A stretch of 64,000 nt of DNA from Spinacia oleracea (Eukaryota > Streptophyta > Magnoliopsida > Caryophyllales > Amaranthaceae): the NCBI RefSeq assembly GCF_020520425.1, contig NC_079491.1:7303143-7367142 (forward strand), read 5' to 3'. This document shows positions 36,583 to 64,000 of the stretch, in pieces; position 1 is the first letter of the stretch, and every line of letters starts with the position of its first letter. Both the position numbers and the translations under genes were made by a program. Below the pieces are notes generated by a model, which made no database searches, had not been told where the DNA came from, and worked only from the letters and a program-made list of their open reading frames with translations.

Positions 36583-37817
36583 TTCTTTCCGCGAAGAAGA
36601 AGAAACCGGAAAAAGAAGAACAAGAATTTGTCCAGATGGAAAGTCTTACCACCGGAGCTGGATTTACCACCAGAGTTGTGGACGGAGGTATTGGTGAGGC
36701 TGCCGGCAAAAGCCCTTGAAAAATTCAGGTGTGTTTGTAGAGCTTGGTGCTCTACGATCGATAAACCTGATTTCTTATCGATGCATCTTAGTCTTTACAA
36801 GAATAATGTTGACAAGAATCGTTTTCTAGTTATGAAGAATTCAAAGGGATGCAGTATACTTCAAGTTCGTCAAAGAGATAACTTTAAGATAAGTACAAAC
36901 TTTCTGCAGAAGAATATGAGCGAAAACATTGACGTTCTTGGATATTGTAATGGTTTGGTTTTGCTTTCACGGAAAGATGATTATGGTATGATTAAGCTAT
37001 GGAACCCTTCTATACAAAAATCTATTGTTCTTCCCCGTTGTCCTGGCGTTAGACAAATTAAAGCTCCTATCGTTGGATTTGTCCCTTCTAGTCATGAATA
37101 TAAAGTGGCTGCCTTTAGCTTTTCTGTTGAGAAATTATCAGTGTCGATTTCAGTTTATTCAGTTAGTGATCATATCTGGAGGGAAAAAACAGTTATGATT
37201 GATTTTCCAGTTATATTTGTTCAAAGTATGGGGTACCGCCAAAAATACGATTACTCTATGATCTTTGATAAATGGAAATTTTATTACTCTCGTGGGGCTG
37301 TGCACTGGCTTGTTTCCGATAAGAAACAACCTGAATAGTGAATACGAACCTAAACCTACACATGTTCGACTTTGGTGTGGAATTGCCGGTTGTTGAAGAT
37401 GAAATGGTAATGCATAGTATGTTTAACCTAGGCGAATCATTGGCCGTCTTTGGTGTCTCGGAGCAGAGAACCTGCATTTGGGTTTGGGTTATGGCGGAAA
37501 ACTTAAGCAACAACCCATGGAGTCTATGGTTTTCAGGAGACTCTAATTTGGATACCTCTAGATTTTTCTCCAAAACACAGTTATTGTTATATAAGAAGCT
37601 ATTCTATGATGAGAGTACAAGTACATTCATTGTAGTATACAAGAGTACAACAATATTGTTTGTAGTATACAACTACTACAACCACGAGTATGATGAACCA
37701 ATGTCTTACAATATTATAACTCGTGAAATACGACGTTTGAGAGAATCTACGGCCGGCCTTAGAATCAAATTTGCAGATACTTATGTGGAGAGCTTGGCTT
37801 TATGCAGTGGACGTTAA
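36583..37817 (+). pseudogene. F-box/FBA gene lacking its start codon and frameshifted
   Basis: The open frame begins RRRNRKKKNKN, matching residues 3-13 of the 16.2-kb copy, but no in-frame ATG precedes the F-box (LPPELWTEVLVRLPAKAL, FRCVCRAWCSTID). About 60 bp containing the ATG are missing between CTAATTCTTTCC and GAAGAAGAAG. The FBA domain follows: LGYCNGLVLLS, KLWNPSIQKSIVLPRCPG, SVSDHIWREKTVMIDF, YYSRGAVHWLVSDKKQPE, then a stop at about 37338. The rest continues in a second frame to 37817 (ELPVVEDEMVMHSMFNLGE, TCIWVWVMAENLSNNPWS, IITREIRRLRES, YVESLALCSGR). Relative to the 49.9-kb copy there is an 8-bp loss at CATGTTCGAC and an in-frame 18-bp loss. It is not translatable as a full F-box protein. 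Confidence 0.8.
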
Positions 37818-43111: not shown

Positions 43112-44194
43112 AAAATGGCGGAAAAGGAAGTCACTAATCAAAATCCAAACTCGCAAGTTCATGACCACTCGGCTTCTCTCATGAAGCAATTCTTTAGTTC
43201 TTCTCCCTCTTTTCTCCATTGATTGTCTTCTCTCAAGTGCAGTTTAGTTCCAGTTTTTATGACATTGTGGACCGTCATGGATCTCAACCTCAGTAGTATC
43301 TCCACTCGTGTGGATCAAGAAGATGATAGTCTTTTGGTCACATCGCAGCATTGTCGATTTATGTTGTTCAGTTACCTAACCAGTCCACCAAAACAGATTT
43401 TGCTTAAAAAACCGCCAACCACAACAATAACTGCAATGAAGGTAAAAACGTAAGTGTAACAAAGTAACATACGCATAAGCAAAGCTGAAAGGGAAAAAAA
43501 AGATAACCCTCAGCCGCAGCTGCTGCTGGGAAAAACAGAAGAAAAACAACAGTTGAAACAGCTGGAATGAACAACCCATAGCAGCAGACTGTAACAACAG
43601 AACAAACAGTCTGCAAACACTCTAACACAAATCTGCACATATCAAAAGTATGAAAATCAAACTGCACCTGCAGCTGCTGAACCAAAAACTACCAGAAGAA
43701 CCAATCTGCACATATAAGAAGTGCAGGTGCTGCTGTTTTCTTCTGTTTTTCCCAGAGTACGTTGTTGGCTAATGATGTAGCAGCTGCTATGTTCTACTGC
43801 AGTGTTCTGCTACCGTCTTAGAATTCATTTCAAACAAATCCATCCAGCCTATGAAAGCAAGGACCCTATTCTCAGGAACATCTTGAGCATAACCAAGAGT
43901 AGGGCCACTGGAAACCCTAATCCTATTATTCATACAACCCCATAGAAAAAAATAAAACCAACAATAATTATTCACATTGATAAAGGATACCCGCATCCTT
44001 TAACTTCAACTTCTGACAATTGAACAATGAGTCTCCTATCTCAGCTATCATCGCAGTGTCACTACAAAAATGGCGGAAAAGTAGTCACAAATCAAAATCC
44101 GAACTCGCAAGTTCATGACCACTCGTCTTCTCTCAAGGAAGCAAAATTCTATAGTTCTTCTCCCTCTTTTCTCCATTGATTTTCTTCTCAAATT
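43112..44194. repeat. 130-bp direct repeat inside the Helitron
   Basis: Copies at about 43112-43240 and 44062-44194 share AACTCGCAAGTTCATGACCA and TTCTCCCTCTTTTCTCCATT with few differences, 950 bp apart. This may be an internal duplication or two captures of one sequence. Confidence 0.7.
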
Positions 44195-46228
44195 GTTATT
44201 CCATAATTTTAGTAATTGTATTAAGTAGTAATTATATTTCAATCATTCTACCTTTTAAAAAAAAAATCTTGACGTTTTTGATAGCTACTGAATTTGTGGC
44301 GTGATTGGTGGAGCAAAGTCGCAAACTAATGTGACTTTCCTTTTTCTTATTTTCTGTTTCAATTATGGCATGATTTTTGGTGAGTTAACCTGTATATTCT
44401 GCTGTGATTAAAAATATTATAAAATATAGGGGATATTAAATGTTTTTAAGGTGACTTAACTTTCTGATTCAAAGCCTTCATTGCATCTGTTAACTTGAGA
44501 AATGAATAGTTACCGCTAGTGATCCATTTCATCTATGCAATATATAAAACCTTAAAAATCAATTGTCCAGTTTATAATCATGGTAACTAATGATAAGAAT
44601 CGAACAAACAAAGTAGTTAATTAGGGGGAAAAGTTGTCACCTTTTGCTTAAAATCTTAAATATTTCATTTCAAATTTGCAATTGATCAATTGAATATGAA
44701 AATTGTATTAGAATTTCATCCAAAGCAGCAAATACAGAGCATCATGATCACAATCATAATAACCTCAATAAAAAAAGTACTCTTGTAAAATTAGAGAAGC
44801 AAGAAATGGAAACAATAGAGCAAATTTACCTGATGAGAAGTGGAAACAATAGAGCAAGTTCAGGCCATGAATTCTTCTTTACAAATTCAGCATCAACAAC
44901 AAAACTATCAAAAATCAAAAGTCGATCAGTTACAAACTTACAATTACCGTATCATCAAAAACCAAAAGGGAAATAGGAAATTCGGAAATTCAGCTAAAAA
45001 AGTTAGGTTACTGCTTCTAACCTAAGAACCGGAAATTCCGCTCGAATTAACGATTCCAATAGCATCTCCTTAAATTCCTGACTAAAAGAACCCGATCGAC
45101 CTTCCCATGAACATTTCGTTGAATCAAGTTCTTAAAATAATAAGCAGCAGCTACTTTACCATCTCCTACACAGTTTAATCAAGTTCAAATTTTCAATTTT
45201 TTGAATCGCAATTAGAAATTCAACTGATTTAGTGCAGGAATCAAATTGATAATATGAAATAGTAGAAATGAATTACCGTTAACATGGGAGAGGAGAGAGA
45301 AAGGGAAATCTATCCCTGGAGAAACATAGGCTGTCAAGTAATTTTGTCCCAGTCTCCTACATAGTAAGAAAACATCCATCACATGTCAGATAAAACTATA
45401 TTCTGCTTTGCCATGATGCTCTTGTGTTAAACACAAAGATCCAGTGAATATAATTAAAATTAACCTAAAATATTGATGATTATTGTCAAGGACCTCAAGT
45501 CCTCAAGGTATGGAGAATTATACAAATTAGTGAGGTAAATAAAATTCCAAAGCTCATCTGGTAGCAAACCTATAGCATCAATTTCATAGACCTTCAATTT
45601 CTCGGACATTAGTCACTATCTCCGTTTACACTTTGTACAGGAGGCTGCTCAAAGTTTTTAACAAAAATGGAAGAATTGTAGCTTTGCGATGACGAATATG
45701 GTTGGACCAACAGAGCAAGTTAGTTTCGCAAACAACCCTGTAAAAGGGTTTTACTTCTTACCAACTGGAATAAACTTGGTAAGATCAGTTACCTACGTAC
45801 CCCCATCTAGTTCATCAATATTCATTAATCTCCGACCAAGATTTAATTAACCTATACATTCTTGAGATCATTTTATTGCAGAGTTTAATAGTGATGCACA
45901 TAGTTTGTTAACACACACCAGCTTATTAGTGATATTAGGTTAATTACAACTTAATTTAATCATCTCATGTTAACACACACCAGAATTCCCCTTCCAATGT
46001 ACCTGATCAATCAATCACCAGTCCAAAACCCCAAATTCTACAATTATAAGTGATTAAGGCGGTGTAAAAGGTGCAGAAATTCACCGAGTAAAATTGCAGA
46101 GTAAAATTAAACTCACGGGATTAACTCCCTTCAAAATTATACTACAATTATGATTAGGAGACAAAATTAAATATGAACTAATAAGTAAATAAATATTTAG
46201 GTTTTGAAATTAAAGGAGTTCCACAAAC

Positions 46229-46579
46229 CTCTCCTCTCACAGGCTTAGGTCCATTCCAAAATGTGTATGTTTCAATCACACACCTCCTTCTTTTGCCTTT
46301 GCAATCAAATCAAGCCACATCTGAATAATTGAAAATTGATATTGAAGTAAAAATTGGGTATTATTACACCAAAATCGGGAAGAAATGTAAATTTAAATGA
46401 AATTGAAATATTTACAACAAAATTCGGGGAAAAGGAAGAATGATGACCTGGGGAGTGGCGCGAGGGTAGTGATGCCGGCGGAGATGAGAATACGACGGCG
46501 TCCGGCGATGATAAGTGATCGATGATCATATGTCACGTTGTACAGCTCAAAGATGAGTTTTTCGATGGAGAATTCCGCC
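46229..46579 (-). pseudogene. captured beta-galactosidase (GH35) exons 1-2
   Basis: On the minus strand, the first piece (46579 down to 46448) contains NVTYDHRSLIIAGRRR then ILISAGI. This matches the start of mature plant beta-galactosidases, which read close to YDHRSLII-DG-R-LLISASIHYPRS. A 1-bp loss precedes the HYPR part. The piece ends CCCCAG/GTCATC as an exon would. After a 127-bp intron, the second piece (46320-46229) gives MWLDLIAKAKEGGV and, after a 4-bp loss, IETYTFWNGPKPVRGE. That is the [25 protein letters not shown] block of the catalytic barrel. Both splice borders are kept. The native enzyme acts on cell-wall galactans and is over 700 residues; this is a dead piece carried by a Helitron. 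The family match is from memory. Confidence 0.8.
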
Positions 46580-46908
46580 ATTAAAAGCATGAGAAAACAC
46601 CATTGCTATTTGAGAGGGAAAAGGGTGAACCTTACCATCAATGATTTTTCATTGATCTTCGAAATTGGTTAGGGTTCTTCAGTGACCGGGGAAGAAGACG
46701 GGGGGAGGTTTGGGATGTGCAGAATTACCATGGAGTTGAGAGGAGAGAGAAAAGGCGTGAGTTGAGAGGAGGGAGAGATTGGGCGCTTAGTGAATCTCTA
46801 GGGTTTCGACCGAAGTCTGGGGTAGGAGGGTATTATTGTCTTTTTCTAAGGGGACACGAAAAGTGTATTTACTTATTTATCCTCAGATGTTCCTTTATAT
46901 AATAGAGA

Positions 46909-47141
46909 TTACTTTTATTTTTTGGTTGAAGAATTTTATCCTTTATTTAAAAAAGTAATAAAAGATTCTATTTTAACAAACTCTGACTTATGTTCACGTT
47001 CAACATATATTACTGTTTAACATTTTTTCATTTATTAAAAAAACAATGATTTAATCTTTTATTTAAAAATGTAGTAAAAGATTCTATATTAACAATACCT
47101 GACTTATCTTCACGTTTAACAAATCATAATTTATTATGTGA
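46909..47141. other. intergenic, AT-rich
   Basis: Two related segments (AAAAGATTCTATTTTAACAA and AAAAGATTCTATATTAACAA, about 46960 and 47075) suggest a local tandem duplication of about 115 bp. No gene is seen. Confidence 0.45.
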
Positions 47142-47557
47142 AAATTTGCCAAATACAACCTCATAAAGTTCTTTATTTGTCAATTACAATCATAAATTTT
47201 TATTTTTGCCAATTACAACCTTAAACTTATACATCCATTTTAAATTACAACCCGAAGTTATTTTCCGGCAAAAATCACCGAAAGATTATATCATAATGTT
47301 ATTAAAAAAAATTACATAATTTCTATAAAAAAATTAAATCGATAAATAAGAATTAAAACAAAAAAAAAAAGAAATTGAAAAAATATTTTTTTTATAGAGT
47401 ACTTCGTAAGTTTTTTTAATAACGTTATTACATTATCTTCTGGTGATTTTTGCAGGAAAATGATTTCGGGTTGTAATTTAAAATATTGAAAAAATTAGAA
47501 ATTTGAGTGTGTAATTAGCAAATAGTGAAATTTATTAGGTTGTATTTGACAAATTTT
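47142..47557. mobile_element. inverted-repeat MITE
   Basis: AAATTTGCCAAATACAACCT on the left is mirrored by AGGTTGTATTTGACAAATTT on the right, and further inner words pair (GGTGATTTTTGC/GCAAAAATCACC). It is about 416 bp. The superfamily is not clear; no target duplication was found. Confidence 0.65.
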
Positions 47558-47881
47558 ATGTTTAAAATTTATTTCATATAGAAAAACAATGATTTCATGC
47601 TTATCTTTTAAGTTCTTACATAGAATCTGCTTAACTTTTTTTTAAAATTAAAAAAAATAGAAAATATTTTAAGCCTGGGAACTTTTTTCTAAAAAAGCGA
47701 CATGCGCATTTCGGAAATTTATCTGGTGATTACTTTAATACTCCATATATAGTAAATGATGATTGGTAAATTGATGTTGAATGAGGAAGATAGAGTGGAA
47801 AATGTGTTAAGTTGTAAAATAAGTTGCAAACAACAACTTTCTCTTATTTTATTCTTTTTTTTTTCCTTATACCCACCCACA

Positions 47882-48592
47882 TCTATACTATTATTAAATC
47901 TCTAAGACAAAGTATGTCACGCCGCCATGTGTCACCTTCTGTAAATATGACAAGACGCCACATCAACAATGACATGGAGGGTATGCTTTTTATATTAAAA
48001 TAAACAAAATGATTTTGTTAGGGTTCGAACATGGGACCAACAAATAATATATTAGAAAGCTTACCATCTTAGCTAATTATTAGTTATGTCTTTTAATTCT
48101 ACTTAAATTATTTAAGTTGGATAGGATTAGTGTGTATTAATACTAATTTTTCACCATGTTTATGTTATTTGCTAATTTTCACACAATAGTGATTGCAAGA
48201 AAATGTAATTTTGTTACAAATATTGAAAAAGGTTTCAAATAATATTACATCTTTTAATTTGACCATTTTCTACATATAATATAACATGTTTTTTCATTCA
48301 TTAGTCAACAATTTTGTTAGCATATATGGATTATAACATATATACAAGACATTGAATAGATATTAGTTATGATTTACAAATACTAACAACCCAAAAAAGA
48401 TAAAGAACACTATTACTAAAATATGATACTACGTACAACACACTACATCCAAATAAAATAAACTATTGCTGGATAGTTTTAAAAAAAAGAGTCAAACTCG
48501 CATACCCACGTATAAATGTAAACAATGTGTAAAAATATATTTCATATAGTATTCTACGTTTTAACCGGGGCATCACCCGGGGAAAACACTAG
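47882..48592 (+). mobile_element. non-autonomous Helitron
   Basis: It begins TCTATACTATTATTAAATCT and ends with the hairpin CCGGGGCATCACCCGG, then GGAAAACACTAG, between A and T. It is 711 bp and related in both ends to the minus-strand Helitron at 24082-26471. Confidence 0.78.
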
Positions 48593-48844
48593 TTTTTATA
48601 CATTTCTCTTACTTCATCCATATTTTATTATATTTAAGGGTAAACTTTTACCACATAAAAAAATTGAAAAATTTATATCGCCAAAAAAATAAATTGTGTT
48701 TTACCACCTAAAAATAAAATAAAAATTGTTGTACACTTGAGTAAAACTTTACTCGGAATACTTAAAGTTACTCCTAATTACACCCTTCCTCTCTTTGTTC
48801 TTCATATGTGAAATATAGTCTTTTATCAAATCGATCTGGTTAAT
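48593..48844. other. 5' flank of the fourth F-box copy
   Basis: AT-rich. The leader resembles those of the other copies only weakly, and no TATA element is singled out. Confidence 0.35.
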
Positions 48845-49537
48845 ATGGGTGGCGGTAGGAGAAGGAAAAACCGGCGTAATAAGTCAAAACGTAAAGTTTT
48901 ACCACCGGAGTTATATTTACCACCAGAGTTATGGAGGAAGGTATTGGCGAGGTTGCCGGTGAAAACCCTATTAAGATTCAGGGCGGTTTGTAGAACCTGG
49001 TGTTCTGTGATCGATGAACCTGATTTTCTTTCGATGCATCTTAATCTTTTTAAGAATAATGTTAACAAGAATTACTTACTAGTCATGGATTCAGATTTTT
49101 GGGGAGATCCATATTTAGGAGTTCGTCTAAGAGAGAGTTTTACGATAATTACACAACTTCAGCAAAATACCAAATCATTTAAGATTCACGGAAATTGTAA
49201 TGGATTGGTTGTAATTCAACATTATGATACGTTGGTTGGGATTCATAATGATAATAGGGTGAACCCTTTGATAAAGCTATGGAACCCGTCTGCACAAAAA
49301 GCTATATATGGTACTTCCCCCTTCTCCGTGCTGTGTAGACGTTGTTGTTATTGGATTTGTTCCTTGCAGTAATGAATATAAAGTGGTTGCCTTTTGCTTT
49401 CATTTAAAAAATTCATCAATGACAGTTTCGGTTTATTCAGTTAGTGATCATCTTTGGAGGAGCAAGACCGTTACGATTGATTTTCCTGTAATATTTTTAC
49501 GTTTGTGGAGGAATTGCACGAGAACATCTGGACAGAT

Positions 49538-49928
49538 TAGACCTGGTTATCGGGCGGGGCGGGTCAGGGTCGGTGCGGGTTAAAAGAGGGTCGGGTATTG
49601 AAAGGGTCATTTTTAGCGGGTCGATAATGGGCGGGTCAAATCGTGTTGCGGGTCAGTAGCGGGTCATTAGTGGGCGGGTCAATAAACGAGCAATGAAAAA
49701 TGAAAAACAAAAGAGCCATGTGCATGTACAAGTAAATACGAAGCTATACACGTAATTTTTTGTATCATTACTATTTTAATTTTCAAAATAATTGTATTAT
49801 AAGTTTGACCCTACAATGACCCTGTCCAATAAAGGCCCTGTCCAATAAGAGCCCTGCCCAATAAAAGCCCTATTAACTTGACCCTAACCCTATATCCATT
49901 GGACTACCCTGTCCAATAACCAGGTCTA
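49538..49928. mobile_element. hAT MITE in the F-box pseudogene
   Basis: TAGACCTGGTTAT and ATAACCAGGTCTA are perfect 13-bp inverted ends. The 8-bp duplication GGACAGAT is exact (49530-49537, 49929-49936). It is 391 bp; the interior has GCGGGTC repeats and CCCTGTCCAATA repeats. Confidence 0.92.
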
Positions 49929-50731
49929 GGACAGATGTGTGATTATTACTCTAATGGAGCCGCACACTGGCTTGTGTCCGATAAAGAAGAACAAAATCAA
50001 TTCACACATGTTCTTTCGTTCGACTTTGGTGCGGAAGCTTTCAGCTATGTGAAATTGCCGGTTGTTGAAGATGAAACCACTACAAGAATTTGATTAATTA
50101 CCAACCGCTAAAATTGGTTGGTAAAACGCGAAAAACGGTTGGTAAAAGATTTTGCGACCGCCAACGGTCGCAAAAAAGCGGTCAGTTTTCACCTGGACGG
50201 TAATTTAGGAAACTCCAACTGGAAGGCGGTCGCTAAAATTTACCGACAGGATTAGCGACCGCAATAAACAGTCACTAAATTAGTGACCGCCAAGCAGTCG
50301 CTAATTTAGTGACCGCTAAGGCAGTCGCTAATTTAGCGACCGCCTAGACGGTCACTAATTTAGTGACTGCCTAGGCGGACACTAAATTAGTGACTGCCTT
50401 GGTGGCGGTCACTAAATTAGTTACTGCTTTAGTGGCGGTCACTAAATTTGTGACTGCCTTTGCGGTCGGTAATTATGCAAATATCATTTGCAGCCAATTT
50501 TGTAAAATCGCATATATACCTGTATTATATATGTACCTGTAAATATTATATATGCCTGTATATATACGAATTTATATAAATTCTGTAAAATCGTATGAAA
50601 CCTGCTCGATGTTATAATATTAAACCTGTTCAAAGTCATACAACAAAGATTCATAATACACATAATGTTGTTCAAACATGTTAATACGAAAAGTTATAAC
50701 TAGTTCAAACTAATACAAGAATACTAACTAC

Positions 50732-51267
50732 CTAACACAAAGGTGTCCCGCCGTCGGTTGGATCTCGAGGGTCCTGCGACTGCGAGAAAGGAAAACCAGT
50801 ACATTGACTGAACATCCGCTCGTAAGACTCCATTGCCTTTTTCATCTGGGCGGCATGTTCTTCTCTTTCTTGTCTCTCCCTTTCTCTCTCTTGTCTCTCC
50901 CTTTCCATCTCCCTTTGGTGCTCTAGTCGATCTGCTTCTCTTTCTTCTCTCTCCCTTTGCCTCAAAAGTAGATCGTCCTCCATAGCCTTTAACATCTGAT
51001 TTTTGTTGTTTCAAGCTCAATGGATTTTTGGGTCAACTGTTGTTGAGTCTCTTCCAATCGAGATGACATTTGAGAATAAATAGATGGGGTGTATGAGCTA
51101 GAAGAACTACCACCCCTTCTAGATGGTGCAAAGTATAGAGAGTCTCCACTCCCCAGCCCGGGGATCTTTCCCTTCTTTCTCCCACCTACTGTCTCAAAGT
51201 AGATTTGGTTGGGATCTTTAGCAATGCCTTTTTCAACACATTTAGCAACAATTTTTTCATAGTTTTC
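50732..51267 (-). pseudogene. C-terminal exon of a Ptta/En/Spm-type transposase
   Basis: Starting after an AG acceptor (TTCTTGTAG), the minus strand reads NYEKIVAKCVEKGIAKDPNQ, FETVGGRKKGKIPGLGSGD and SQMSSRLEETQQQLTQKS. After a frame change near 51003 it continues as MLKAMEDDLLLRQRERE, a long charged coiled coil of RE repeats, MKKAMESYERMFSQCTGF and a GGTPLC tail with stop. This is the usual end of plant En/Spm-family transposase proteins (Transposase_24, PF03004, and its C-terminal extension). One frameshift and the missing upstream exons make it non-functional. Upstream on this strand lies the 161-bp array, which has displaced or separated the rest of the gene. Confidence 0.75.
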
Positions 51268-51329
51268 CTACAAGAATTAAAATGATTATCACCCATGCAT
51301 AACAAATATATTAAATTGAGCACATTTAA

Positions 51330-54300
51330 ACTTAAAACATATATAGGCTAAATAAGGCATTTTCGCTCCCATTTTTCAAAAAAAAGAACTAAGGGCTGAT
51401 TTTAAACTTAAAACATGTTTCATAAGCTTTGTTTTCACTTGCTAAGTCACATTCAAACGTAGTTACTCACATCTAAGGCCTATTTGGTCGTTATAGGTCA
51501 TATATTGCCTAAAATGTCATTTTCTCGCCCAACTTTGAGCTAAGGAACCAAACTTGTCATTTCAAACCATTTACATGTTTTATGTGGCATATTCAAGGTT
51601 TCTAAAACCGATTCTATGCAATTTAAGCACATTTAAGTCATATTTGGTCGATATAGGTCATATATAGGCTAAATAAGGCATTTTCGGTCCCATTTTTCAA
51701 CTAAATCACCTAGGGGCAGATTTTAAACTTAAAACATGTTTCATAAGCTTTGTTTGAACTTGCTAAGTCACATTCAAAGGTATTTACTCAAATCTAAGGC
51801 CTATTTGGTCGTTATAGGTCATATATAGGCTAAATAAGGAATTTTCGGTCCCATTTTTCAACTAAATCACCTAGGGGCAGATTTTAAACTTAAAATGTGT
51901 TTCATAAGTTTAGTTTGAACTTGCTAAGTCACATTCAAAGGTATTTACTCACATCTAAGGCCTATTTGGTCGTTATAGGTCATATATTGCCTAAAATGTC
52001 ATTTTCTCGCCCAACTTTGAACTAAGGAACCAAACTTGTCATTTCAAACCATTTACATGTTTTATGTGGCATATTAAAGGTTTCTAAAACTGATTCTAAG
52101 AAATTTAAGCACATTTAAGTCATATTTGGTCGATATAGGTCATATATAGGCTAAATAAGGCATTTTCGGTCCCATTTTTCAACTAAATCACCTCGGGGCA
52201 GATTTTAAACTTAAAACATGTTTCATAAGCTTTGTTTGAACTTGCTAAGTCACATTCAAAGGTATTTACTCACATCTAAGGCCTATTTGGTCGTTATAGG
52301 TCACATATAGGCTAAATAAGGCATTTTCGGTCCCATTTTTTAACTAAATCACCTAGGGACAGATTTTAAACTTAAAATGTGTTTCATAAGTTTAGTTTGA
52401 ACTTGCTAAGTCACATTCAAAGGTATTTACTCACATCTAAGGCCTATTTGGTCGTTATAGGTCATATATTGCCTAAAATGTCATTTTCTCGCCCAACTTT
52501 GAACTAAGGAACCAAACTTGTCATTTCAAACCATTTACATGTTTTATGTGTCATATTCAAGGTTTCTAAAACCGATTCTAAGCAATTTAAGCACATTTAG
52601 GTAATATTTGGTCGATATAGGTCACATATAGGCTAAATAAGGCGTTTTCGGTCCCATTTTTCAACTTAATCACCTACGGGCTGATTTTAAACTTAAAACA
52701 TGTTTCATAAGGTTAGTTTGAACTTGCTAAGTCACATTCAAAGGTATTTACTCACATCTAAGGCCTATATGGTCGTTATAGGTCATATATTGCCTAAAAT
52801 GTCATTTTCTCGCCCAACTTTGAGCTAAGGAACCAAACTTGTCATTTCAAACCATTTACATGTTTTATGTGTCATATTCAAGGTTTCTAAAACAGATTCT
52901 AAGCAATTTAAGCACATTTAGGTCATATTTGGTCGATATAGGTCATATATAGGCTAAATAAGGCGTTTTCGGTCCCATTTTTCAACTAAATCACCTAGGG
53001 TCTGATTTTAAACTTAAAAAGTGTTTCATAAGCTTTGTTTGAGCTTGCTAAGTCACATTCAAAGGTATTTACTCACATCTAAGGCCTATTTGGTCGTTAT
53101 AGGTCATATATAGGCTAAATAAGGCATTTTCGGTCCCATTTTTCAACTAAATTACCTAGGGGCAGATTTTAAACTTAAAACATGTTTCATAAGCTTTGTT
53201 TGAACTTGCTAAGTCACATTCAAAGGTATTTACTCACATCTAAGGCCTATTTGGTCGTTATAGGTCATATATAGGCTAAATAAGGCATTTTCGGTCCCAT
53301 TTTTCAACTAAATTACCTAGGGGCAGATTTTAAACTTAAAACATGTTTCATAAGCTTTGTTTGAACTTGCTAAGTCACATTCAAGGTTATTTACTCACAT
53401 CCAAGGCCTATTTGGTCGTTATAGGTCATATATAGGCTAAATAAGGCATTTTCGGTCCCATTTTTCAACTAAATCACCTAGGGGCAGATTTTAAACTTAA
53501 AACATGTTTCATAAGCTTTTTTTGAACTTGCTAAGTCACATTCAAAGGTATTTACTCACATCTAAGGCCTATATGGTCGTTATAGGTCATATATTGCCTA
53601 AAATGTCATTTTCTCGCCCAACTTTGAGCTAAGGAACCAAACTTGTCATTTCAAACCATTTACATGTTTTATTTGTCATATTCAAGGTTTCTAAAACCGA
53701 TTCTAAGCAATTTAAGCACATTTAGGTCATATTTGGTCGATATAGGTCATATATAGGCTAAATAAGGCGTTTTCGGTCCCATTTTTCAACTAAATCACCT
53801 AGGGTCTGATTTTAAACTTAAAACATGTTTCATAAGGTTAGTTTGAGCTTGCTAAGTCACATTCAAAGGTATTTACTCACATCTAAGGCCTATTTGGTCG
53901 TTATAGGTCATATATAGGCTAAATAAGGCATTTTCGGTCCCATTTTTCAACTAAATTACCTAGGGGCAGATTTTAAACTTAAAACATGTTTCATAAGCTT
54001 TGTTTGAACTTGCTAAGTCACATTCAAAGGTATTTACTCACATCTAAGGCCTATTTGGTCGTTATAGGTCATATATAGGCTAAATAAGGCATTTTCGGTC
54101 CCATTTTTCAACTAAATCACCTAGGGGCAGATTTTAAACTTAAAACATGTTTCATAAGCTTTGTTTGAACTTGCTAAGTCACATTCAAGGTTATTTACTC
54201 ACATCTAAGGCCTATTTGGTCGTTATAGATCATATATAGGCTAAATAAGGCATTTTCGGTCCCATATTTCAACTAAATCACCTAGGGGCAGATTTTAAAC

Positions 54301-54515
54301 TTAAAACATGTTTCATAAGCTTTTTTTGAACTTGGTAAGTCACATTCAAAGGTATTTACTCACATCTAAGGCCTATTTGGTCGTTATAGGTCATATATTG
54401 CCTAAAATGTCATTTTCTCGCCCAACTTTGAGCTAAGGAACCAAACTTGTCATTTCAAACCATTTACATGTTTTATGTGTCATATTCAAGGTTTCTAAAA
54501 TCGATTCGAAGCAAT
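51330..54515. repeat. satellite-like tandem array, unit about 161 bp, two unit types
   Basis: Markers such as AAGGCCTATTTGGTCGTTAT recur at 53081, 53242, 53403 and 53564, exactly 161 bp apart. About 20 units fill 3.2 kb. Type A has GGCTAAATAAGGCATTTTCG and ACCTAGGGGCAGATTTTAAA. Type B has GCCTAAAATGTCATTTTCTC and GAACCAAACTTGTCATTTCA. A and B share the start (TAGGTCATATA) and are interleaved in a partly regular higher-order pattern, for example 53564-53885 is 321 bp. There is no coding potential. Confidence 0.92.
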
Positions 54516-55017
54516 TCACGTGAGAACGAATCACAAATATCTTCTTGAAATCTAACACAAAAATCATGCATACTCCCGAATTCACGTGGCTTCATATCAT
54601 TTTTCACACCTAATCTAAAATCTATTAGGACTATTTTCATCAATTGGCCTATTATTCTTTACTAACTTTCTCTTAGATTCTTATTACTGCGTAGAATATA
54701 TACTACAAGTCAGTCATTACAGCTAACATCAACTGAAAAAACATCAAATCATTATATAAGGGGCCAAATTAAACGTTTCTCGATCATCCTTAACGGCTAC
54801 TTTGACTATTGCTCATCATTTTCAAGAATGTCAGACAATTAAGAGCACATGAAATGAACACCATCAAGAACTAAAGCAACCTCTTTCACAAAATTCCAGA
54901 AATTCAACCTAAAACAAGTACACACCACAATCTAAAAAGAAAATAAATTCATAAAAAAAATAACATATTTAATTTCAGAGAGAAAAAAAAGCAGAAATAC
55001 AACTCACCAGATTTAGT

Positions 55018-55290
55018 TTGTGCGGTAGTGCGGTTGTGCGGTTGTGCGGTAGTGCGGTTGCTCAGATTTTACGGTAGTGCGGTTGTGCTGGGAAGGAGCG
55101 TCGGTTGGTGGCGGTAGTGCGGTAGTGCGGGCTGTGGCGGGTTTTTGGAAGTGTGGTAGTGCGGGCTGGGAAGGTGCGTCGCCGGAAGGTGGGAGGGGCG
55201 TCGCCGGTAGTGGTAGGTTCGTCGCCGGCAGCCCAAATCGCCCAGCAGGTTCGTCGCCTCGAGGTGCTTCGCTGGGTGTGAAGCTTTTTT
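55018..55290. repeat. GC-rich minisatellite in the CACTA element
   Basis: GTGCGGTAGTGCGGTTGTGC-type repeats of about 8-9 bp grade into TCGTCGCCGG-type repeats. It is far more GC-rich than the flanking AT-rich sequence. An open frame through it is an artefact of base composition. Confidence 0.75.
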
Positions 55291-55763
55291 TTATATATTT
55301 ATTTTGAAGTGTAGATCTGAATGAAGTTGGTCACAAATTGTACTCAAATCTCTTTTTTTTTTTTCCTTTAAAAAATTACCGACCGCTTATATGGTTGGAG
55401 ATATTAAATAGGCGGTAATTAAAATTTTGAATGAGTTTTGGAAATAGTCGGATTTTTACCAACCGCTCTTTAGTCGGAATACAAGAAAAAGCAGTCGATA
55501 AATTACCGACTGCTTTAAAAGCGGTGGGTAAACTTAAAATTTAGCGACCGCTCAATTTTCGGTCGGTAAATTACCGACTGGTTTTTTAACGGTCGCTAAT
55601 TTTTTTTTTACTGACTAATTTTTTGGCGGTCGGTAAAAGCAGTTGGTAATCAAGCGCTTTCTTGTAGTGAACGTTGATGAATCTGTTTAACTTAGGCGAA
55701 TCATTGGCAGTGTTTGGTATTTCGAAGCAGAGTAGCTGCATTTGGGTTATGAGGCAAAATGAC

Positions 55764-56707
55764 CAGGGCCGACTCCGACGATTTGGTGGCCCTGTGCTAA
55801 GCTTATCAACGAAGTTCATATGAGGCCCCTACAAATACAATATTTTAGCCCTTTTTTTTATAATTGAGGATTTTCATTGCTTTAAACGAGCAAAGTGTTC
55901 AGCTCAATACATTATACAGCAGACTTAAGCAACCGAATATAACGATTAAGCCAAAGATAAAGTTCTACATCCTAGCAATGAAAACATCTTCCCTATTGAG
56001 TCCCAGTCTTGCCCGATAATCTGCAACCATATTTGAAGCACGACTTTTATGAGAAATATTTTAGCCTTAATTCCAAACTCTTCCCATTCTTTTTTCCCAT
56101 TCACGTTTTGGCATAATTCAATAATTGAAAAATTAAACAGAAAAAATAATTACAATTACAATATTTTAAAGCATTTGAAAAATCAAACAACAATTTAAAT
56201 TTACATATAAATTACAAAAATAAAACTTTTAAAAAAGATAGATACAACCTGAATTGATTGCTTGTCAATTGAAGAAAGAGAATAAATTGATTGCTTCCCC
56301 TCTTTGAGTTGTAGCAAATTGTAGATATTGATACTTTCGATTTTCCCCTCTTTGAATTGAAATAATTCGAAATTGTAGATCTTGATACAAAAATATAGAT
56401 GAATGGAATTTTTTTCCTAATTGGAGAAAAGGTAGGAGACGAATTCAGTGAATTTAGTAGTTTTTAGGAGAGATAATTAAAGGAATTAAGAGAATTTATT
56501 GACTAGCTTTGGAAATCAAAACATGGGAAGGAGAGAGAATTTGATGAGTGATTTTGGGGTTCTGTTTCACCGGGAAGGGAATTGAAGAAGAAGAGCGGCT
56601 TTTCTTTTCTTTTCTTTTTTTAAACCAACAGTCTGTAATTTTTGGGCCCCCAAAATTTTTGGGCCCTGTGTTGTAGCACCGCCCGGACCGCCCTATAGCC
56701 GGGCCTG
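55764..56707. mobile_element. hAT element in the F-box pseudogene
   Basis: CAGGGCCGACTCCGACG begins it and TATAGCCGGGCCTG ends it (imperfect inverted ends). The 8-bp duplication AAAATGAC is exact (55756-55763, 56708-56715). It is 944 bp. Inner words GGTGGCCCTGTGC and GGGCCCTGTGTTGTAGCACC pair as well. It contains a short RNase H-like coding tail (see 55945-56050) but no hAT transposase. Confidence 0.88.
55945..56050 (-). pseudogene. RNase H-like C-terminal fragment, probably from a LINE
   Basis: On the minus strand one frame reads SRASNMVADYRARLGLNRED then VFIARM and a stop. This resembles the R-x-x-N-x-V-A-D-x-x-A-R-x-G end of plant LINE-type and related RNase H domains. It is only about 26 residues, inside the hAT element; capture or an old insertion are both possible. 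Confidence 0.4.
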
Positions 56708-56786
56708 AAAATGACGATGATAACAACAACCCATGGAGTGTATGGTTTACAGGAGATTCTAATTCAGATGGCTATGGATTATTCTA

Positions 56787-57229
56787 TATTGGAGAACATG
56801 ATCATGGAATACAAGATCATGATCAGAAGCAAGACAGCAATCAAGCTGAACAACAACTGAAGCAAGACAGCAACATAGTTGAGCAACAACTGACTAACAC
56901 ATTCGAGCAAGATCAGTCCAACACAAGAACTAAACTGATCACTGCACTGCTGACTTGTTTGTTGACACTAGAAGACCACAATGCACAGATTGGTGATGTG
57001 GCACTGCAGTAGACAGATTGATGACATGGCTAAGGTTGTTACATGATGTAATAGTTAGTTATAACTAACTCTCTTAGGTGTGTTTGTTTAGGCTTGTAAA
57101 ACTAGCACACTAGTATAAAAACAGTAGTGCTTTGCTTCTGTTAAGTAACAAGAATCATTCTCGATTCTTAGTTAATAAAATTCTCTTCCCTTTCTCTCAA
57201 TTTGTAGTTCTAAATATAGAACTTCTTCA
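56787..57229 (+). repeat. copia 5' LTR
   Basis: 443 bp from TATTGGAGAACATG to AACTTCTTCA, ending directly before the primer-binding site. A TATA-like AGTATAAAAACAG at about 57111 fits the LTR promoter. Confidence 0.9.
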
Positions 57230-57417
57230 TGGTATCAGAGCAGGCTTAGATTCTGCCAAAATTCCAAAATTCCGCATTTCTTTAAACTGTTAAAAGAACA
57301 GAAAAGCAATTCTTTGATAAAATCTCAACTTGTTTGTTATTCAAAGCCAGAAAAATAATCTTGATAATTGAAAGCAGCAATTTGTTGAAATTTTCTATTT
57401 GATTTCCTGAGATCATC

Positions 57418-58620
57418 ATGGCAACAGAAGCAATGCAAGATCCAAACAGTGTGTACTTCATACATACATCAGAAAATCCTTATGCAGCAGTGGTGTCTGA
57501 TAAATTTGATGGAGAAGGTTATGCAGAGTGGAAGAGGGGCATATTACTAGCTTTTGCAGTCAAGAACAAAGTTCGATTCATTGATGGATCATTGCCTAAA
57601 CCAGCCCTCAATCATGCTGATTACCAAGCTTGGGACAGATGCAACAACATGGTCATGGCATACTTATTAAGATCTCTAAGTCCTACAATTGCCAAGAGTG
57701 TTGTTTTTCTTCCAACTGCAAGAGATATTTGGAAAGATTTGGAGGAACGTTTTTCAGTTACATCTGGACCACAGTTTTATGGTCTGCAACAAAGTTTAAG
57801 TGAAATTTCACAAGGAGATAGCAGCATTACTGATTTCTTTACCAAGATTAAGATGATTTGGGATGAATTGAATAGTGCTAAGGCTACACCAGTTTGTATC
57901 TGCAGTGGTTGTACTTGTAATGTCAGTCAAAAGTTTGTGCAAGAAAAAGAAGAAGAAAGATTGATTCAGATGTTAATGAAGCTGCATAAGAAGCACTCCC
58001 AAGTGAGAACTAATATTCTAATGATGAACCCTTTGCCTAGTATTGCAACTGCATACAGGTTGCTTATTCAAGATGAGAAACAACAAAGAATGTCTAAAGA
58101 TCAAGATGTAAAGCCAATGGTGTTTGCAGTATCTGATGACAGAAGGAACACTCATTACAACAACAATAACAACAGAGTTTATCAGCCAAAGATGTTGCAA
58201 GGTCCTGGTAACAACAGAATTGCAGTCTCAAACAAAAGAATTGGCAATTCATATTTCTGCAATCACTGTAACATGGCTGGTCATTCTGTTGAAAAATGCT
58301 GGAAGCTGCATGGGTATCCACCTGGTCACAGGGGAAAAAGATTTGCAGCAGTAATGCAAGGTACTGAGGATACTCCAAGTGATGGGAATGTTACTCACAT
58401 TTCAGAAGAGCAATACCAACAATTTTTAACACTCATCAATGGTCAAGAACAGTCTGTTCACTCAGCAAATATGGCAGGTACTTGTCTAATCACATCTTTT
58501 AATACAAGGTGGATCATTGATAGTGGAGCAACTGATCATATCTGTTCTAATTTGGATTTGTTTCATACATATTCTGAGTTGCAAGGAGATGTTAGGTCTA
58601 TAACAGTAGCTGATGGAAAG
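57418..58620 (+). CDS. copia gag and protease region (fossil)
   Basis: The start ATG is 190 bp after the primer-binding site. The N-terminal gag part has NPYAAVVSDKFDGEGYAEWK and FIDGSLPKP, typical of the plant copia gag family (Retrotran_gag_3). A CCHC zinc knuckle, CNHCNMAGHSVEKC, lies at about 58255-58300. The aspartic protease motif WIIDSGATDHICSN is at about 58510-58550. It belongs to the element at 56787 and is treated as a fossil. Confidence 0.88.
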
Positions 58621-58973
58621 AAAGTTGAGGTTAAACATGTTGGTAATGTTATGATTGGGAAAAACATTGTGCTTAAGAATGTTCTACATGTACCTAGTTG
58701 TCATTTTAACCTTATCTCAACTCATAAGCTGTGTAGAGATCTGTCTCATGATATCATTTTCACTCATGACAAGTGTATGATTCAGGAACATTCTCAGAAA
58801 GCTTCAGTGGTTCTTGGTAAGATAGAATCAGGGTTGTATGCTGTTGTTGAGGATGATTCGGAGAATAAGAAGCTCAAGAACAACTCAGTTTCAGAAGTCT
58901 TGGTTACAGTCAGTGAAGACATCAAGTATGGCACTTAAGGATAGGCCATTTACCTTTTGATAAACTTCATTTA

Positions 58974-61010
58974 GTGAATAAATCCTTGCCTTCTGTTGGC
59001 AGAAATTGTGATAGTTTTTGCCAGATTTGTCCCAAAGCAAAACAAAGTAGGAAACCATTTCCTGTTAGTCATACTAAGACTTCTCAGTGTTTTGAACCTC
59101 TTCATATTGATGTTTGGGGACCATTTAGAGTAAAGACTCATGACAATTGTACATTTTTCCTTACAATTGTAGATGACTATTCAAGGAATACATGGACTTT
59201 TTTTATAAAGCATAAATCTGATTCTGTTGATATTTTGTCTAATTTCTTGACCTTTGCTGATACTCAATATGGTTTGAAAGTAAAGTGTTTTAGATCAGAT
59301 AATGCTAAAGAACTTTGTGAGGGGAGAATTTTGTCCTTGTATCATAAATTTGGGATCAAACATCAGAAAAGCTGTACAGATACTCCACAGCAAAATGGAG
59401 TAGTTGAAAGGAAGCATAGGCATCTATTAGAAACAGCAAGAGCTTTGTTCTTCCAATCTAGACTTCCAATGAGATTTTGGGGAGAATGTTTGCTCACTGC
59501 TACTCATCTCATCAATAGAATGCCACTAGCTAGCATCAACTTTGACATACCTTATGAAAGGTTAAACAACACTCAAGTTCAGTTGGATCACTTGAGGGTT
59601 TATGGTTGTCTTGGCTATGTTTCTACCATCAAAGCCAATAGGTCTAAGTTTGATCCTAGGTCCATTCCATGTGTTCTAGTTGGTTATCCTCCTGATCAAA
59701 AGGGTTATAGGATGCTCAATTTGGAAACCAAACAAATTATAGTTTCCAGAGATGTACACTTTCATGAGAAACACTTACCATTCCACATTTCAGCCACCAA
59801 ACACACAACCACAAGCCCTATTTTTCTCCCAATTCACACTCCCTTTGACCTTCAAACTGATTTTGATATCCCTGATGTGTTTGATATACCATCTGAACCA
59901 AATACTCCAACTACAGAACAAAATTCACCTAGCACAGATTTTGAACTTTCTCAAACAACTAATGAACCTGAAACACATACCACCTCACCTGAACCTACTC
60001 CTAATACAAATACAGATTCTGAACCTGAACCTAATGCATCTAATTCTGCATCCACAGAGCTGTTAGTGCCATCTAGACAGTCTACAAGGTTACACAAACC
60101 TCCAACATGGTTGGATGATTATGTATGCACAGTTTCTGAACTCAGTTGGTGCAACATTGTTAGTTACAATGATTTTCCAACTTTTCATAAAGTTTTGGCA
60201 TCTCAAGCTGTTAAAGTTTCTGAACCTGTCACTTTCAATGAAGTTTCTCAGTCTGCAGAATGGGTTACAGCAATGAACAAAGAAATTGAAGCTCTCACTG
60301 CCAACAACACATGGGCAATGTGTATGCTTCCAAAAGGCAAAAAGGCAATTGGGTGTAAATGGGTTTACAGGATAAATATGAAGAAGGATGGTTCTATTGA
60401 AAGGCACAAAGCCAGACTTGTGGCTGAGGGGTTTACACAAAAATATGGGATAGACTATGCAGAAACCTTTTCACCACGTATCAAAATGGCTACTGTTAGG
60501 TGCTTAATTTCTTTGGCAGTCACTAAAGGTTGGATTGTTCATCAACTAGACATTAATAATGCATTTCTGCATGGTGATCTAACAGAAGAAGTCTATATGA
60601 GGGTGCCTGATGGGATTTCTAACCCAGAAAAACAAGTGTGTAGGTTGAAAAAGTCTCTTTATGGTTTAAAACAAGCAAGTAGACAGTGGTTTGCAAAGCT
60701 CACATCTGAACTGCTTCATCTTGGTTTTGTTCAATCAAAGAATGATTATTCTTTATTCATCAAAACACAAAATCATGAACACACTTTAGTTGCAGTCTAT
60801 GTTGATGATATTTTGGTTACTGGTCCTCATCATTCAGAGATTATTGCTCTCAAATCACACTTACACAAGAAATTTAGCATCAAAGATCTAGGTGAATTGA
60901 GCTACTTTCTTGGGATTGAAATTTCCAGAGTTGATAATGGTGTTTTTCTGTCTCAGTCAAAGTTTACTAGAGAATTATTGGCAGATTGCAATATGGATGT
61001 GTCTGATGAG
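58974..61010 (+). CDS. copia integrase and reverse transcriptase region (fossil)
   Basis: The integrase follows a zinc-binding CQICPKAKQSR motif (GAG-pre-integrase) and reads HIDVWGPFRVKTHDNCTFFL, VDDYSRNTWTFF and DTPQQNGVVERKHRHL. A threonine- and proline-rich spacer (59800-60070) separates it from the reverse transcriptase (GCKWVYRINMKKDGSIERHK, QLDINNAFLHGDL, LYGLKQASRQW and the catalytic YVDDILVTG at about 60800). These domains copy and insert the element; it is treated as a fossil here. Confidence 0.88.
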
Positions 61011-61018
61011 TTAAAAAG

Positions 61019-62818
61019 TGATACCGCAAGTGCACGGTGTCTGTTGTTAGCAGATACTTAGCAAATACGGGTCGATCCCACAGGGAGACAAGTTCTATTA
61101 GTTTTTGCCCAATTATACGAACTATTTCAATAACGAAAGTTGATTTTGGATATTATTAACTAATGAAGCTAAAGCAATAATGTAAATGTGAACTTATCAA
61201 TGAATTAAAAGGTCTAGGGCGTCTGTTCGGTTCACCATGCTTATACCAATCCAAGAACACAAATCAATCCATAAATGAATAAACTAAGCCGAGTAATTAA
61301 AGTACATGTTAATCCTACGGTCGGGTCTTAACACTTTCAATTCAACATATGCAGTACGGTCACTAACATAATCAGAATTGCCGATTGCACTAAGCCTCTA
61401 AAAATACGATCTTTCGATTCTAATTCCTATTAGCTAGATAATCAATTCATGAAACTGGCCGATAACATGAATCAACAATTAAAACAAATCAATCGGAATA
61501 CTCAAGCAATAATCTATAAATTAACGAACTTTATGCATAATAATCATGGTATAAACATGGCTTCCCTTACTTAGCCCTAGAGTACGACTACTCGCTCATA
61601 ATTGAATTAATAAACATGATAGAAATAATAAACATGAAATTCATAATCAAAGGAAAAATTAAACTAAGGAACGAAAACAATAATAATAAATTAAAGAAAA
61701 AGAAATTATGAAAAATACCTCTATATTGATTAATTGAATGGAATGAACTAGGGCTCAATAATGTGTAGAGAGAGAAATAAAACTGAGCGTTTAAAAGAAT
61801 TCTCAGGAAATAATAACATGAGGGAAATAAATTAGTTCCCTTGAGTATTTATATGCTCCTATTTTCTAAAATAAAAAAATAAATAAATATGAAAATAAAA
61901 AATAAAAGTCGTCGATGATTGGTCGATGGAGCGATGATGTGGCAGCCAAACCCGAGCACGAGCCGCGCACACGGGAAGATAGATGGCGAGGCATGGGCAG
62001 CGAGGGATCTCGCGCACCATCCCTCGCTGACATCATGATGAGCGACTAGCAAGAAGGTAGAGCAGCGAGGGAGCTAGCGAGCCATCCCTCGCTGCCCTGC
62101 GCGTGTGTGTAGCAAGCTAAGCGACGAAGCTATAGGCAGCGAGGGAGCTAGCGAGCCATCCCTCGCTGGCCTAGTGAAGTGCAGCAAGACAGGACGACGA
62201 AGCTATAGGCAGCGAGGGAGCTAGCGAGCCATCCCTCGCTGGCCTAGTGAAGTGCAGCAAGACAAGACGACGAGCAACGAGGCAGCGAGGGAGCTAGCGA
62301 GCCATCCCTCGCTGGCCTAGTGAGATGCATAGCAGGCCAAGGCGACGAGCAACGAGGCAGCGAGGGAGCTAGCGAGCCATCCCTCGCTGGCCTAGTGAAG
62401 CAAGCAACTATGAAGCGATGAGGCACGACGATAGATGTAGCGAGCCAACGATAAATGTAGCGAGCCTACGATAAATGTCTTGCGAGCCAACGAGGGATCT
62501 TGCGAGCCAACGAGGGATCTTGCGAGCTATGCACAAGCGATACATCGAGTTAATCATCCCCGGAAAACTCAATTCTCCGATCAAACACTTCGTCTCCGAC
62601 TCAAACCATCCGGTGATCATTCGTTCCACCTCCAAACACTCCGAAAGCACCCAAATGAAAAATCACCTGAAATATCAAAGAAAACACAAACGGAGCGTAA
62701 TAGAGTACAATAACGACGACTTATGCAATTATGACTCTAAATGCAACTAAAATGAGACGAATGCCTAGAAATGCAACCTAAATGAGCCTAGAATACCCTA
62801 TATAAATATGATTCATCA
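61019..62818. mobile_element. 1.8-kb non-coding insertion inside the copia element
   Basis: It begins TGATACCGCAAGTGCACGGT, followed by GGGTCGATCCCACAGGGAGA, a motif pair I associate with non-coding LTR-type repeats in many plants. It ends ATATGATTCATCA, so the tips are TGAT...ATCA. No coding domain is present. A convincing 5-bp duplication is not visible. It may be a solo LTR or a non-autonomous retroelement. It contains a hairpin minisatellite at 61996-62400. Confidence 0.6.
61996..62400. repeat. hairpin-forming minisatellite, unit about 72-75 bp
   Basis: The palindromic block GCAGCGAGGGAGCTAGCGAG plus CCATCCCTCGCTG recurs at about 62062, 62136, 62208, 62281 and 62356, with a variant at 61996. 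Each block pairs AGCGAGGGA with TCCCTCGCT. Spacers carry GGCCTAGTGAAGTGCAGCAA. It is strongly GC-rich inside an AT-rich region. Confidence 0.88.
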
Positions 62819-62821
62819 GTG

Positions 62822-63568
62822 TCCAAGCTAGCCAAAACACCACTTCCTGTCAAACTCAAGCTCACTGCTTTGTCAGATGAACCATATACTGATCCTACTC
62901 AGTATAGGTGCTTGGTAGGCAAACTCAATTTCCTCACTCATACCAGACCTGATCTCTCCTTTGCAGTACAGACTTTGAGTCAATTCATGCAGTCTCCCAA
63001 GGTATCTCATTCCTATGCTTTGAATCATCTGCTTAGGTATGTAGCTCATACAATTGGTCAAGGGATATGCATTCAGTCTTCTTCTCAATTGGTTTTACAA
63101 GCTTACTGTGATTCTGATTGGGCTGCATGTCCAGATACTAGAAGATCTGTCACTGGTTATCTTATGCTACTTGGTACAAGTCCAATTTCTTGGAAATCTA
63201 AAAAGCAAATCACCATCTCCAGATCATCTTCTGAAGCTGAGTATAGAGCTATGGCAGCTGCAGCTTCAGAAATTACTTGGTTGGTAAGATTGCTGCAAGA
63301 GATGGGTATATCTAATCTAAGTCCAGTTAAGCTTCAGTGTGACAACCAGTCTGCCATACACATTGCAAAGAATCCAGTTCACCATGAAAGAACTAAACAC
63401 ATTGAACTAGACTGTCATTTTACAAGGGACAAAGTGCTGGAAGGGTTGATTGATCTGACTTTTGTTCCTACTTCTAATCAGTTAGCTGATGTGTTAACAA
63501 AGGTGTTGTCATACCCTCAACACTCTGATTTATTGTCCAAGCTAGGTATGCTACCCCCACCTAGCTTG
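62822..63568 (+). CDS. copia RNase H region (fossil)
   Basis: The end of the polymerase module (SKLAKTPLPVKLKL, YRCLVGKLNFLTHTRPDLSF) is followed by RNase H motifs: AYCDSDWAACPDTRRSVTGY, SRSSSEAEYRAMA, LQCDNQSAIHIAKNPVHHER and THELADVLTK-like ADVLTKVLSYPQH. It ends just before the polypurine tract. Part of the element at 56787 and treated as a fossil. Confidence 0.88.
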
Positions 63569-63576
63569 AGGGGGGC

Positions 63577-64000
63577 TATTGGAGAACATGATCATGGAAT
63601 ACATGATCATGATCAGAAGCAAGACAGCAATCAAGCTGAACAACAACTGAAGCAAGACAGGAACACAGTTGAGCAACAACTGACTAACACATTCGAGCAA
63701 GATCAGTCCAACACAAGAACTAAACTGATCACTGCACTGCTGACTTGTTTGCTGACACTAGAAGACCACAATGCACATATTGGTGATGTGGCACTGCAGC
63801 ACACAGATTGATGACATGGCTAAGGTTGTTACATGATGTAATAGTTAGTTATAACTAACTCTCTTAGGTGTGTTTGTTTAGGCTTGTAAAACTAGCACAC
63901 TAGTATAAAAACAGTAGTGCTTTGCTTCTGTTAAGTAACAAGAATCATTCTCGATTCTTAGTTACTAAAATTCTCTTCCCTTTCTCTCAATTTGTAGTTC
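63577..64000 (+). repeat. copia 3' LTR, cut by the window edge
   Basis: It matches 56787-57210 with about 8 substitutions over 424 bp. By comparison with the 5' LTR about 19 bases remain outside the window. Confidence 0.92.

Follow-up and report, generated by a model that had tools for sequence, protein, structure and literature searches.

How does one duplicated plant gene come to lie in pieces among several transposable elements (TEs), and how much of its decay can be read from the borders that these elements have left? The question is raised by a broken F-box gene copy in a 64,000-base stretch of the spinach (Spinacia oleracea) genome, C5:7303143-7367142, termed the window throughout; relatives of its parts were sought in 894,210,420 bases on 242 contigs. 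The favoured reading, held at a probability of about 0.88, is that a spare F-box/FBA_1 copy was recently hit by several unrelated transposons and that the end of the gene was lost at the border of one of them, a copia element.

The interrupted F-box gene and its three DNA transposons

Four pieces of the host gene alternate with three DNA transposons, and the last piece abuts the copia element. Features are listed in window coordinates, with a strand where one was assigned.

48845..49537, plus strand: host piece 1, with the F-box domain and the sole frameshift (~49296-49311), aligned to paralogs
49530..49537: left copy of the target duplication GGACAGAT, an exact 8-bp repeat of 49929-49936 that abuts the element terminus
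49538..49928: hAT-like miniature inverted-repeat transposable element (MITE), termed hAT1, 391 bp, with the terminal inverted repeat (TIR) TAGACCTGGTTAT and an 8-bp duplication
49929..49936: right copy of GGACAGAT, an exact 8-bp repeat that abuts the element terminus
49937..50077, plus strand: host piece 2, terminating in AAC, from paralog alignment
50075-50077 and 55670-55672: AAC duplication, 3 bp, exact, abutting the CACTA termini
50078..55669: CACTA-type element, 5592 bp, apparently non-autonomous, with TIR CACTACAAGAA at both ends
51338..54417: tandem array of 161/321/482-bp units, 3.1 kb, inside the CACTA element (Tandem Repeats Finder)
55670..55763, plus strand: host piece 3, with AAC at its start and AAAATGAC at its end, from paralog alignment
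55756-55763 and 56708-56715: AAAATGAC duplication, 8 bp, exact, abutting the hAT2 termini
55764..56707: hAT-like non-autonomous element, termed hAT2, 944 bp, with the ends CAGGGCCG/CGGGCCTG
56708..56786, plus strand: host piece 4, the final F-box sequence kept, terminating in TTCTA, its boundary set from other copia copies

The pieces are read as one former gene because, when they are joined and every duplication is kept only once, they align continuously with paralogs, which served as stand-ins for the host gene before insertion. The joined sequence aligns end to end and without large interruption at 81% identity with C5:7774951-7775871 and at 80% identity with C6:101792020-101792972, and this alignment runs through the insertion points without gaps, apart from an indel of 3 bases next to the second and small ones next to the third. 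In order and orientation, the pieces follow one another as consecutive parts of the F-box copies at 19.2 and 36.6 kb in the window. Host DNA amounts to 996 bp within 48845-56786, a span of 7.9 kb, and related copies measure ~1.25 kb. An earlier note on this DNA had proposed that a single duplicated F-box copy was broken by insertions, that its pieces match consecutive parts of the related copies, and that about 8 kb now separates the first and last visible pieces of a gene expected to span about 1.3 kb; this is borne out by the measured span and by the collinear alignments to paralogs without insertion at these points.

Pfam recognises the F-box domain (PF00646, E value 1.9e-11) on the 175-amino-acid (aa) open reading frame (ORF) 48845-49372 of piece 1. 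The FBA_1 domain was read on the C5 paralog L051, the partner of pieces 2-4, where a 415-aa open frame holds both F-box and FBA_1 domains (Pfam). Judged by its sequence, the window gene is one member of a clustered F-box/FBA_1 family, and matches to the F-box family are spread over six large contigs of the genome.

That the three elements inserted separately is shown by the exact duplications at their ends, of the same length as in the other copies read. The duplications GGACAGAT, AAC and AAAATGAC lie directly against the termini, as the earlier note had described for these three insertions. At 49538-49928, TIRs combine with an 8-bp duplication in the manner of hAT elements, and 8-bp duplications flank all nine other copies that were read among 39 other matches listed (787 first-look candidates, 40 scored). 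The same combination marks 55764-56707, where the TIRs start with CAGGG/CAGGC and are imperfect (CAGGGCCG vs CAGGCCCG). For this second element, an 8-bp duplication was found in one of two other copies read, the second not being alignable at its start; the former, at C4:12376141, is flanked by GTGATCTT, an 8-bp duplication of its own, and shows 6 differences over 943 sites. The element at 50078-55669 shows CACTA termini with a 3-bp duplication, and both of the other full copies read are flanked by 3-bp duplications as well (TAG, ACA). It is taken as non-autonomous because its largest wholly internal ORF measures 98 aa; no transposase was found in it, and an 87-aa ORF at 50732-50995, the only ORF of the element scanned, had no Pfam match at E 0.001. 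Stretches resembling its tandem array, each of a few kb, are scattered over several chromosomes (330 matches in the 29 candidates scored, out of 1123), as if a satellite-like array were travelling inside CACTA elements.

The copia element and its right border

Piece 4 is followed by a copia element that is itself broken by a nested long terminal repeat (LTR) and that ends in the tail of a long interspersed nuclear element (LINE).

56787..57229, plus strand: copia 5' LTR, 443 bp, TATTGG...TTCTTCA, left flank TTCTA
From 57230, plus strand: primer-binding-like TGGTATCAGAGC directly after the 5' LTR, which we take to be an initiator-tRNA primer site
57418..58938, plus strand: copia ORF with gag and Pol beta-barrel domains (Pfam PF14244, PF14223, PF22936)
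58974..61061, plus strand: copia ORF with integrase, then reverse transcriptase (Pfam PF00665, PF25597, PF07727; rve, then RVT_2)
60999-61003 and 62819-62823: GTGTC duplication, perfect, flanking the solo LTR
61004..62818, plus strand: solo LTR, 1815 bp, nested in copia, TGATGA...TCATCA
62819..63576, plus strand: rest of the copia internal region, resuming the sequence broken at 61003 and reaching to a G-rich tract before the 3' LTR
63577..64000 and on to 64018, plus strand: copia 3' LTR, 442 bp, with 8 mismatches against the 5' LTR
64015-64064 (L009:15-64): LINE-like 3' tail with poly(A), ~50 bases, before TACACCC

Two LTRs and an integrase placed before the reverse transcriptase mark the element as copia; the ORF 62819-63811 had no Pfam match at E 0.001. 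The five other copies with both flanks read delimit the LTR as TATTGG...TTCTTCA and carry exact 5-bp duplications in three cases (GCTAT, CAGTT, CATAT) and duplications matching in four of five bases in two. A boundary at TGGAGAAC was also considered and was rejected, as the copies with duplications place the start at TATTGG, 3 bases to the left.

The element's own sequence is interrupted at 61003 by a single LTR with GTGTC on both sides. A copia copy on C2 (L075), used as a stand-in for the uninterrupted element, reads GGATGTGTCCAAGC at this site without interruption. Many of the listed relatives of the solo LTR are paired ~12 kb apart, and one pair has ATGAC on both outer sides. The solo LTR was probably once an element of ~13.8 kb that shrank by recombination between its two LTRs. 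A candidate reading in which an AGTG duplication flanked the nested 1.8-kb piece was rejected, since comparison with L075 gives GTGTC instead and the pairs reveal an LTR. GC-rich 73-bp tandem repeats (GCAGCGAGGGAGCTAGCGAGCCATCCCTCGCTGG...) lie at 62062-62400 within the solo LTR.

The right end of the copia element is of another kind. Its 3' LTR ends at 64018, 18 bases past the window, as ...CTTCTTC and without the final A of the family, at the junction CTTCTTC/GAGGACC (L009). TTCTA on the left thus faces GAGGA on the right, and no TTCTA, hence no 5-bp target duplication, was found on the right side. The earlier note's claim of exact duplications at all four insertions therefore fails at copia, and its statement that a copia LTR opens the fourth insertion stands for the left end, with the 5' LTR at 56787 and two LTRs, but not for a right end without duplication. 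Nor is the record the clean one that the note had seen in it, as the 3' end of the gene is missing and a fifth insertion, the solo LTR in copia, had been overlooked.

Beyond the 3' LTR, GAGGACCTAACCTAGTCTTCTCTCCG... leads into a poly(A) run ending at 64064. The LINE-like tail was recognised in all five other loci read, as GGCCTACTTC followed by GAGGACC, GAGGGCC or TAGGGCC, and CTTC is common to this tail and the copia LTR end. Very short LINE copies do occur, as at L061, where a copy starting at GGCCTACTTC has an 18-bp duplication around it. The sequence directly after the poly(A) run matches a stretch beside other F-box genes (L055) that is without the LINE at this point. The last ~270 bp of the F-box gene were not found in the 19 kb to the right of copia. 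A genome search with the 3' end of a paralog returned 14 matches; eight lie in L051, L053, L054, the copy on C6 and the window copies at 16, 19.2 and 36.6 kb, some of them split into two pieces, one in a second L054 copy, one near an intact gene at C5:7614168, and three were read at L101-L103. At L102 the 3' match is weak (33% aa), and L103 consists of weak pieces of the middle and 3' part. At the copia border we thus see the edge of a deletion, or of a break that was repaired, rather than a clean insertion.

The favoured reading then runs as follows. The hAT-like MITE, the non-autonomous CACTA element and the second hAT-like element inserted separately, each with its own target duplication, into the gene that also holds a copia element with both its LTRs; the solo LTR, with its own duplication, is nested in that copia. 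At the right end, where copia passes without duplication straight into a LINE-like tail and the F-box end is absent, DNA of unspecified length that included the last ~270 bp of the gene may have been lost through the shared CTTC. The loss itself could be a later deletion, the repair of a break or the insertion of the LINE. No special targeting would be needed beyond relaxed selection in a TE-rich genome.

Among the accounts of this junction, two are equally tentative. It could be that copia complementary DNA (cDNA) was captured during the repair of a double-strand break, in which case no duplication would ever have existed and the F-box end, up to the LINE tail, would have been lost with the break. 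The junction agrees with this, as it lies one base short of the LTR end and has CTTC in common with the LINE; so does the lack of a TTCTA duplication, given that duplications, full or nearly so, flank all five of the other copies read. Had there been an ordinary later deletion, chance alone would have made it end within one base of the LTR end. However, nothing is missing at the left end, which looks as it would after normal integration, and a later deletion using the same microhomology would look alike, the LTR divergence not separating the two. With no better and no worse prospects, the LINE insertion may itself have made the deletion. In that case priming of a very short, 5'-truncated LINE copy would have taken place to the right of the gene, and CTTC would have served to join its other end to the copia border, at the cost of the gene end in between. 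Truncated LINEs of this sort are known with microhomology junctions and deletions. Only ~50 bases of tail with poly(A) remain here (64015-64064), the copy at L061 that starts at GGCCTACTTC with an 18-bp duplication is equally short, and at this point the LINE is absent from L055, which resembles the right flank in sequence. Yet a stop within one base of the LTR end would again be due to chance, and the left duplication of the LINE is absent, so that a cut-down older LINE is equally possible. Microhomology-mediated deletion, cDNA capture and LINE-associated deletion share with this locus the CTTC junction, the missing host DNA and the short LINE tail, and they are not distinguishable here without the ancestral allele.

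Recombination between a copia element in the F-box gene and a second one in the LINE to the right, with loss of the DNA between them and a hybrid without matching duplications as its product, is unlikely. Such an event would account for a junction placed at the end of the LTR and for the absence of the gene end. However, the eight LTR substitutions are private (five in the 5' LTR, three in the 3' LTR) and none is common to 10 other LTRs, so that no second parent can be seen; a separate change would be needed for the last LTR base, and the CTTC match would be chance. A tree of the LTRs made with a hybrid origin in mind gave no shared variants and nothing further. A LINE-copia template-switch chimera was rejected, as the full 5' LTR start, which would be absent from copia RNA, is present. 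Finally, an assembly error hiding a gene that continues to the right is hardly credible: repeats do flank the junction on both sides, but stretches next to other F-box genes are similar to the right flank, and a contig N50 of ~23.8 Mb and a quality value (QV) of 46.2 are given for the published Monoe-Viroflay assembly, which this genome, matching it in size, seems to be (~894.3 Mb, 69.9% repeats, 307 contigs before scaffolding; PMC8668906).

Age, order and clustering of the insertions

The divergences of the inserted elements are small, at 18 of 5399 sites for CACTA (from 50271 onward only, the first 193 bases having been left out where the aligner split), 6 of 943 between hAT2 and its nearest copy, 6 of 391 between hAT1 and its nearest copy, and 13 of 1795 for the solo LTR. 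The copia LTR pair differs at 8 of 442 sites, taken as four per LTR. Differences private to the copy in the window number 17 in 5388 for CACTA (again from 50271 onward), 4 in 391 for hAT1, whose dating is based on 9 copies of the 39 others listed, and 9 in 1791 for the solo LTR. At assumed substitution rates of 7e-9 and 1.3e-8 per site per year, the point estimates of age range over ~0.2-1.5 million years, and the insertions would thus fall roughly within the last one to few million years. CACTA is probably the youngest insertion, with one-sided, uncorrected p values of 0.018 against copia, 0.050 against hAT1 and 0.18 against the solo LTR. The solo LTR must be younger than copia. The order is otherwise not readable because the insertions adjoin side by side, and this anatomy does not show the succession that the earlier note had read into it.

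The gene may have been intact until recently, because its frame is open through all four pieces apart from one frameshift. This frameshift, a net gain of 4 bases at ~49296-49311, is followed by a frame that stays open from about codon 160 through the last piece. In a crude neutral simulation, the probability of meeting no in-frame stop was 0.004 for 169 substitutions, 0.019 for 107, 0.03 for 85 and 0.13 for 50. The gene was presumably fast-evolving, with a frame kept until shortly before the insertions.

Several points weigh against the reading of a spare copy that was hit recently and lost its end at the copia border. The age intervals are wide, and at the slower rate they extend to 3.7 million years for hAT1 and 3.3 million years for copia. 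Substitutions found only in the host copy are even over the codon positions (33, 36, 38), so that they show no purifying selection, and the paralog branches have no clear third-position excess either (8, 16, 15 and 18, 9, 12). The frameshift is not datable as older or younger than the insertions. Finally, an orphan F-box 3' piece stands alone at L101:787-975 (C5:7785787-7785975), 420 kb away; it covers aa 347-407 of the paralog at 57% aa identity, is 73% identical to that paralog, and has neither a 5' part of its own nor a copia LTR in the 2 kb read. Sequence comparison makes it a faint candidate for the lost end of the gene, a weak one because the rest of the window gene is 81% identical to that paralog against 73% for the piece.

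Whether the insertions gather here beyond chance was assessed on the F-box copies that tblastn found in the stretches examined, 19 in number, of which one cut by a locus end was left out (n = 18); insertions were identified from a reading of the gaps and counted if they measured at least 100 bp. Five were counted in total, four in this copy and one in an L054 copy, leaving 16 copies with none. The insertion in L054 is MITE-like, ~331 bp long (L054:3625-3955) near the 3' end of the F-box copy, and 94.6% identical to window 24083-24414; a second gap in the same copy, 67 to 126 bp longer than in others depending on the copy compared, was not counted. Under an even spread, the chance that at least four of five insertions fall in one copy is ~0.0008 with 18 copies, 0.006 with nine, and 0.0023 if that doubtful second gap is counted as a sixth insertion. 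These figures are generous because some copies may be under selection and the case was chosen as extreme.

The earlier note had called the locus a transposon sink. That it is a real hot spot attracting several transposon families is improbable, in spite of the low chance figures and the small divergences of the inserted elements. Selection removes insertions from working copies, and some of the 18 copies are intact and may be under selection, while some broken ones have deletions; the case was picked for being extreme against a background of one or two events; and GGACAGAT, AAC, AAAATGAC and the flank TTCTA offer no common target site. Relaxed selection and the choice of an extreme case can explain four of five insertions in one of 18 copies, and the evidence, though compatible with a sink, does not show one. 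Still less likely is a combined account, in which the copia cDNA was captured at a double-strand break and joined through CTTC to the LINE tail with loss of the gene end, and a fragile locus of ~1 kb, break site and hot spot in one, drew the three DNA transposons at about the same time.

Known patterns and neighbouring features

Nested and clustered TE insertions in pseudogenes are a general pattern in plants. The spare F-box copy shares with TE-riddled plant pseudogenes the independent insertions with target duplications in a dispensable copy, and the solo LTR nested in an older LTR element. It differs from this pattern in holding four insertions of distinct families within ~1 kb of one gene, in their small divergences, and in the loss of the gene end at the copia border. 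With Ty1/copia, the element shares its LTRs, a primer-binding-like site and the integrase before the reverse transcriptase; unlike Ty1/copia, it has no duplication, its 3' LTR is one base short, and it is broken by a solo LTR. The locus itself was not found described in the literature, the searches not having named it. Such a locus is what gene duplication ordinarily leaves in a plant genome rich in TEs, though this one is unusually well resolved, with families, sizes and approximate dates of a duplicated gene's decay legible at one place. No long-standing question is opened by it; the lesson is that the insertion of a full-length LTR element should not be called clean until each of its borders has been examined.

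Studies on the birth and death of plant F-box genes (PMC3030570, PMC7829749) concern, as here, a large and fast-changing family with many broken copies, three window neighbours being broken too; those studies appear to treat whole families, whereas here one copy is read base by base. Of these neighbours, the copies of the same subfamily at 19202-20460 and 36628-37817 look broken, each splitting into two ORFs in different frames, and the copy at 16187-16594, with an internal deletion, looks broken as well. A scan of 44000-64000 with Rfam gave no matches at the gathering score. At 48556-48594, ~250 bp upstream of the F-box ATG, a hairpin-like ACCGGGGCATCACCCGGGG is followed by AAAACACTAGT, a motif that we presume to be like the 3' end of a Helitron.

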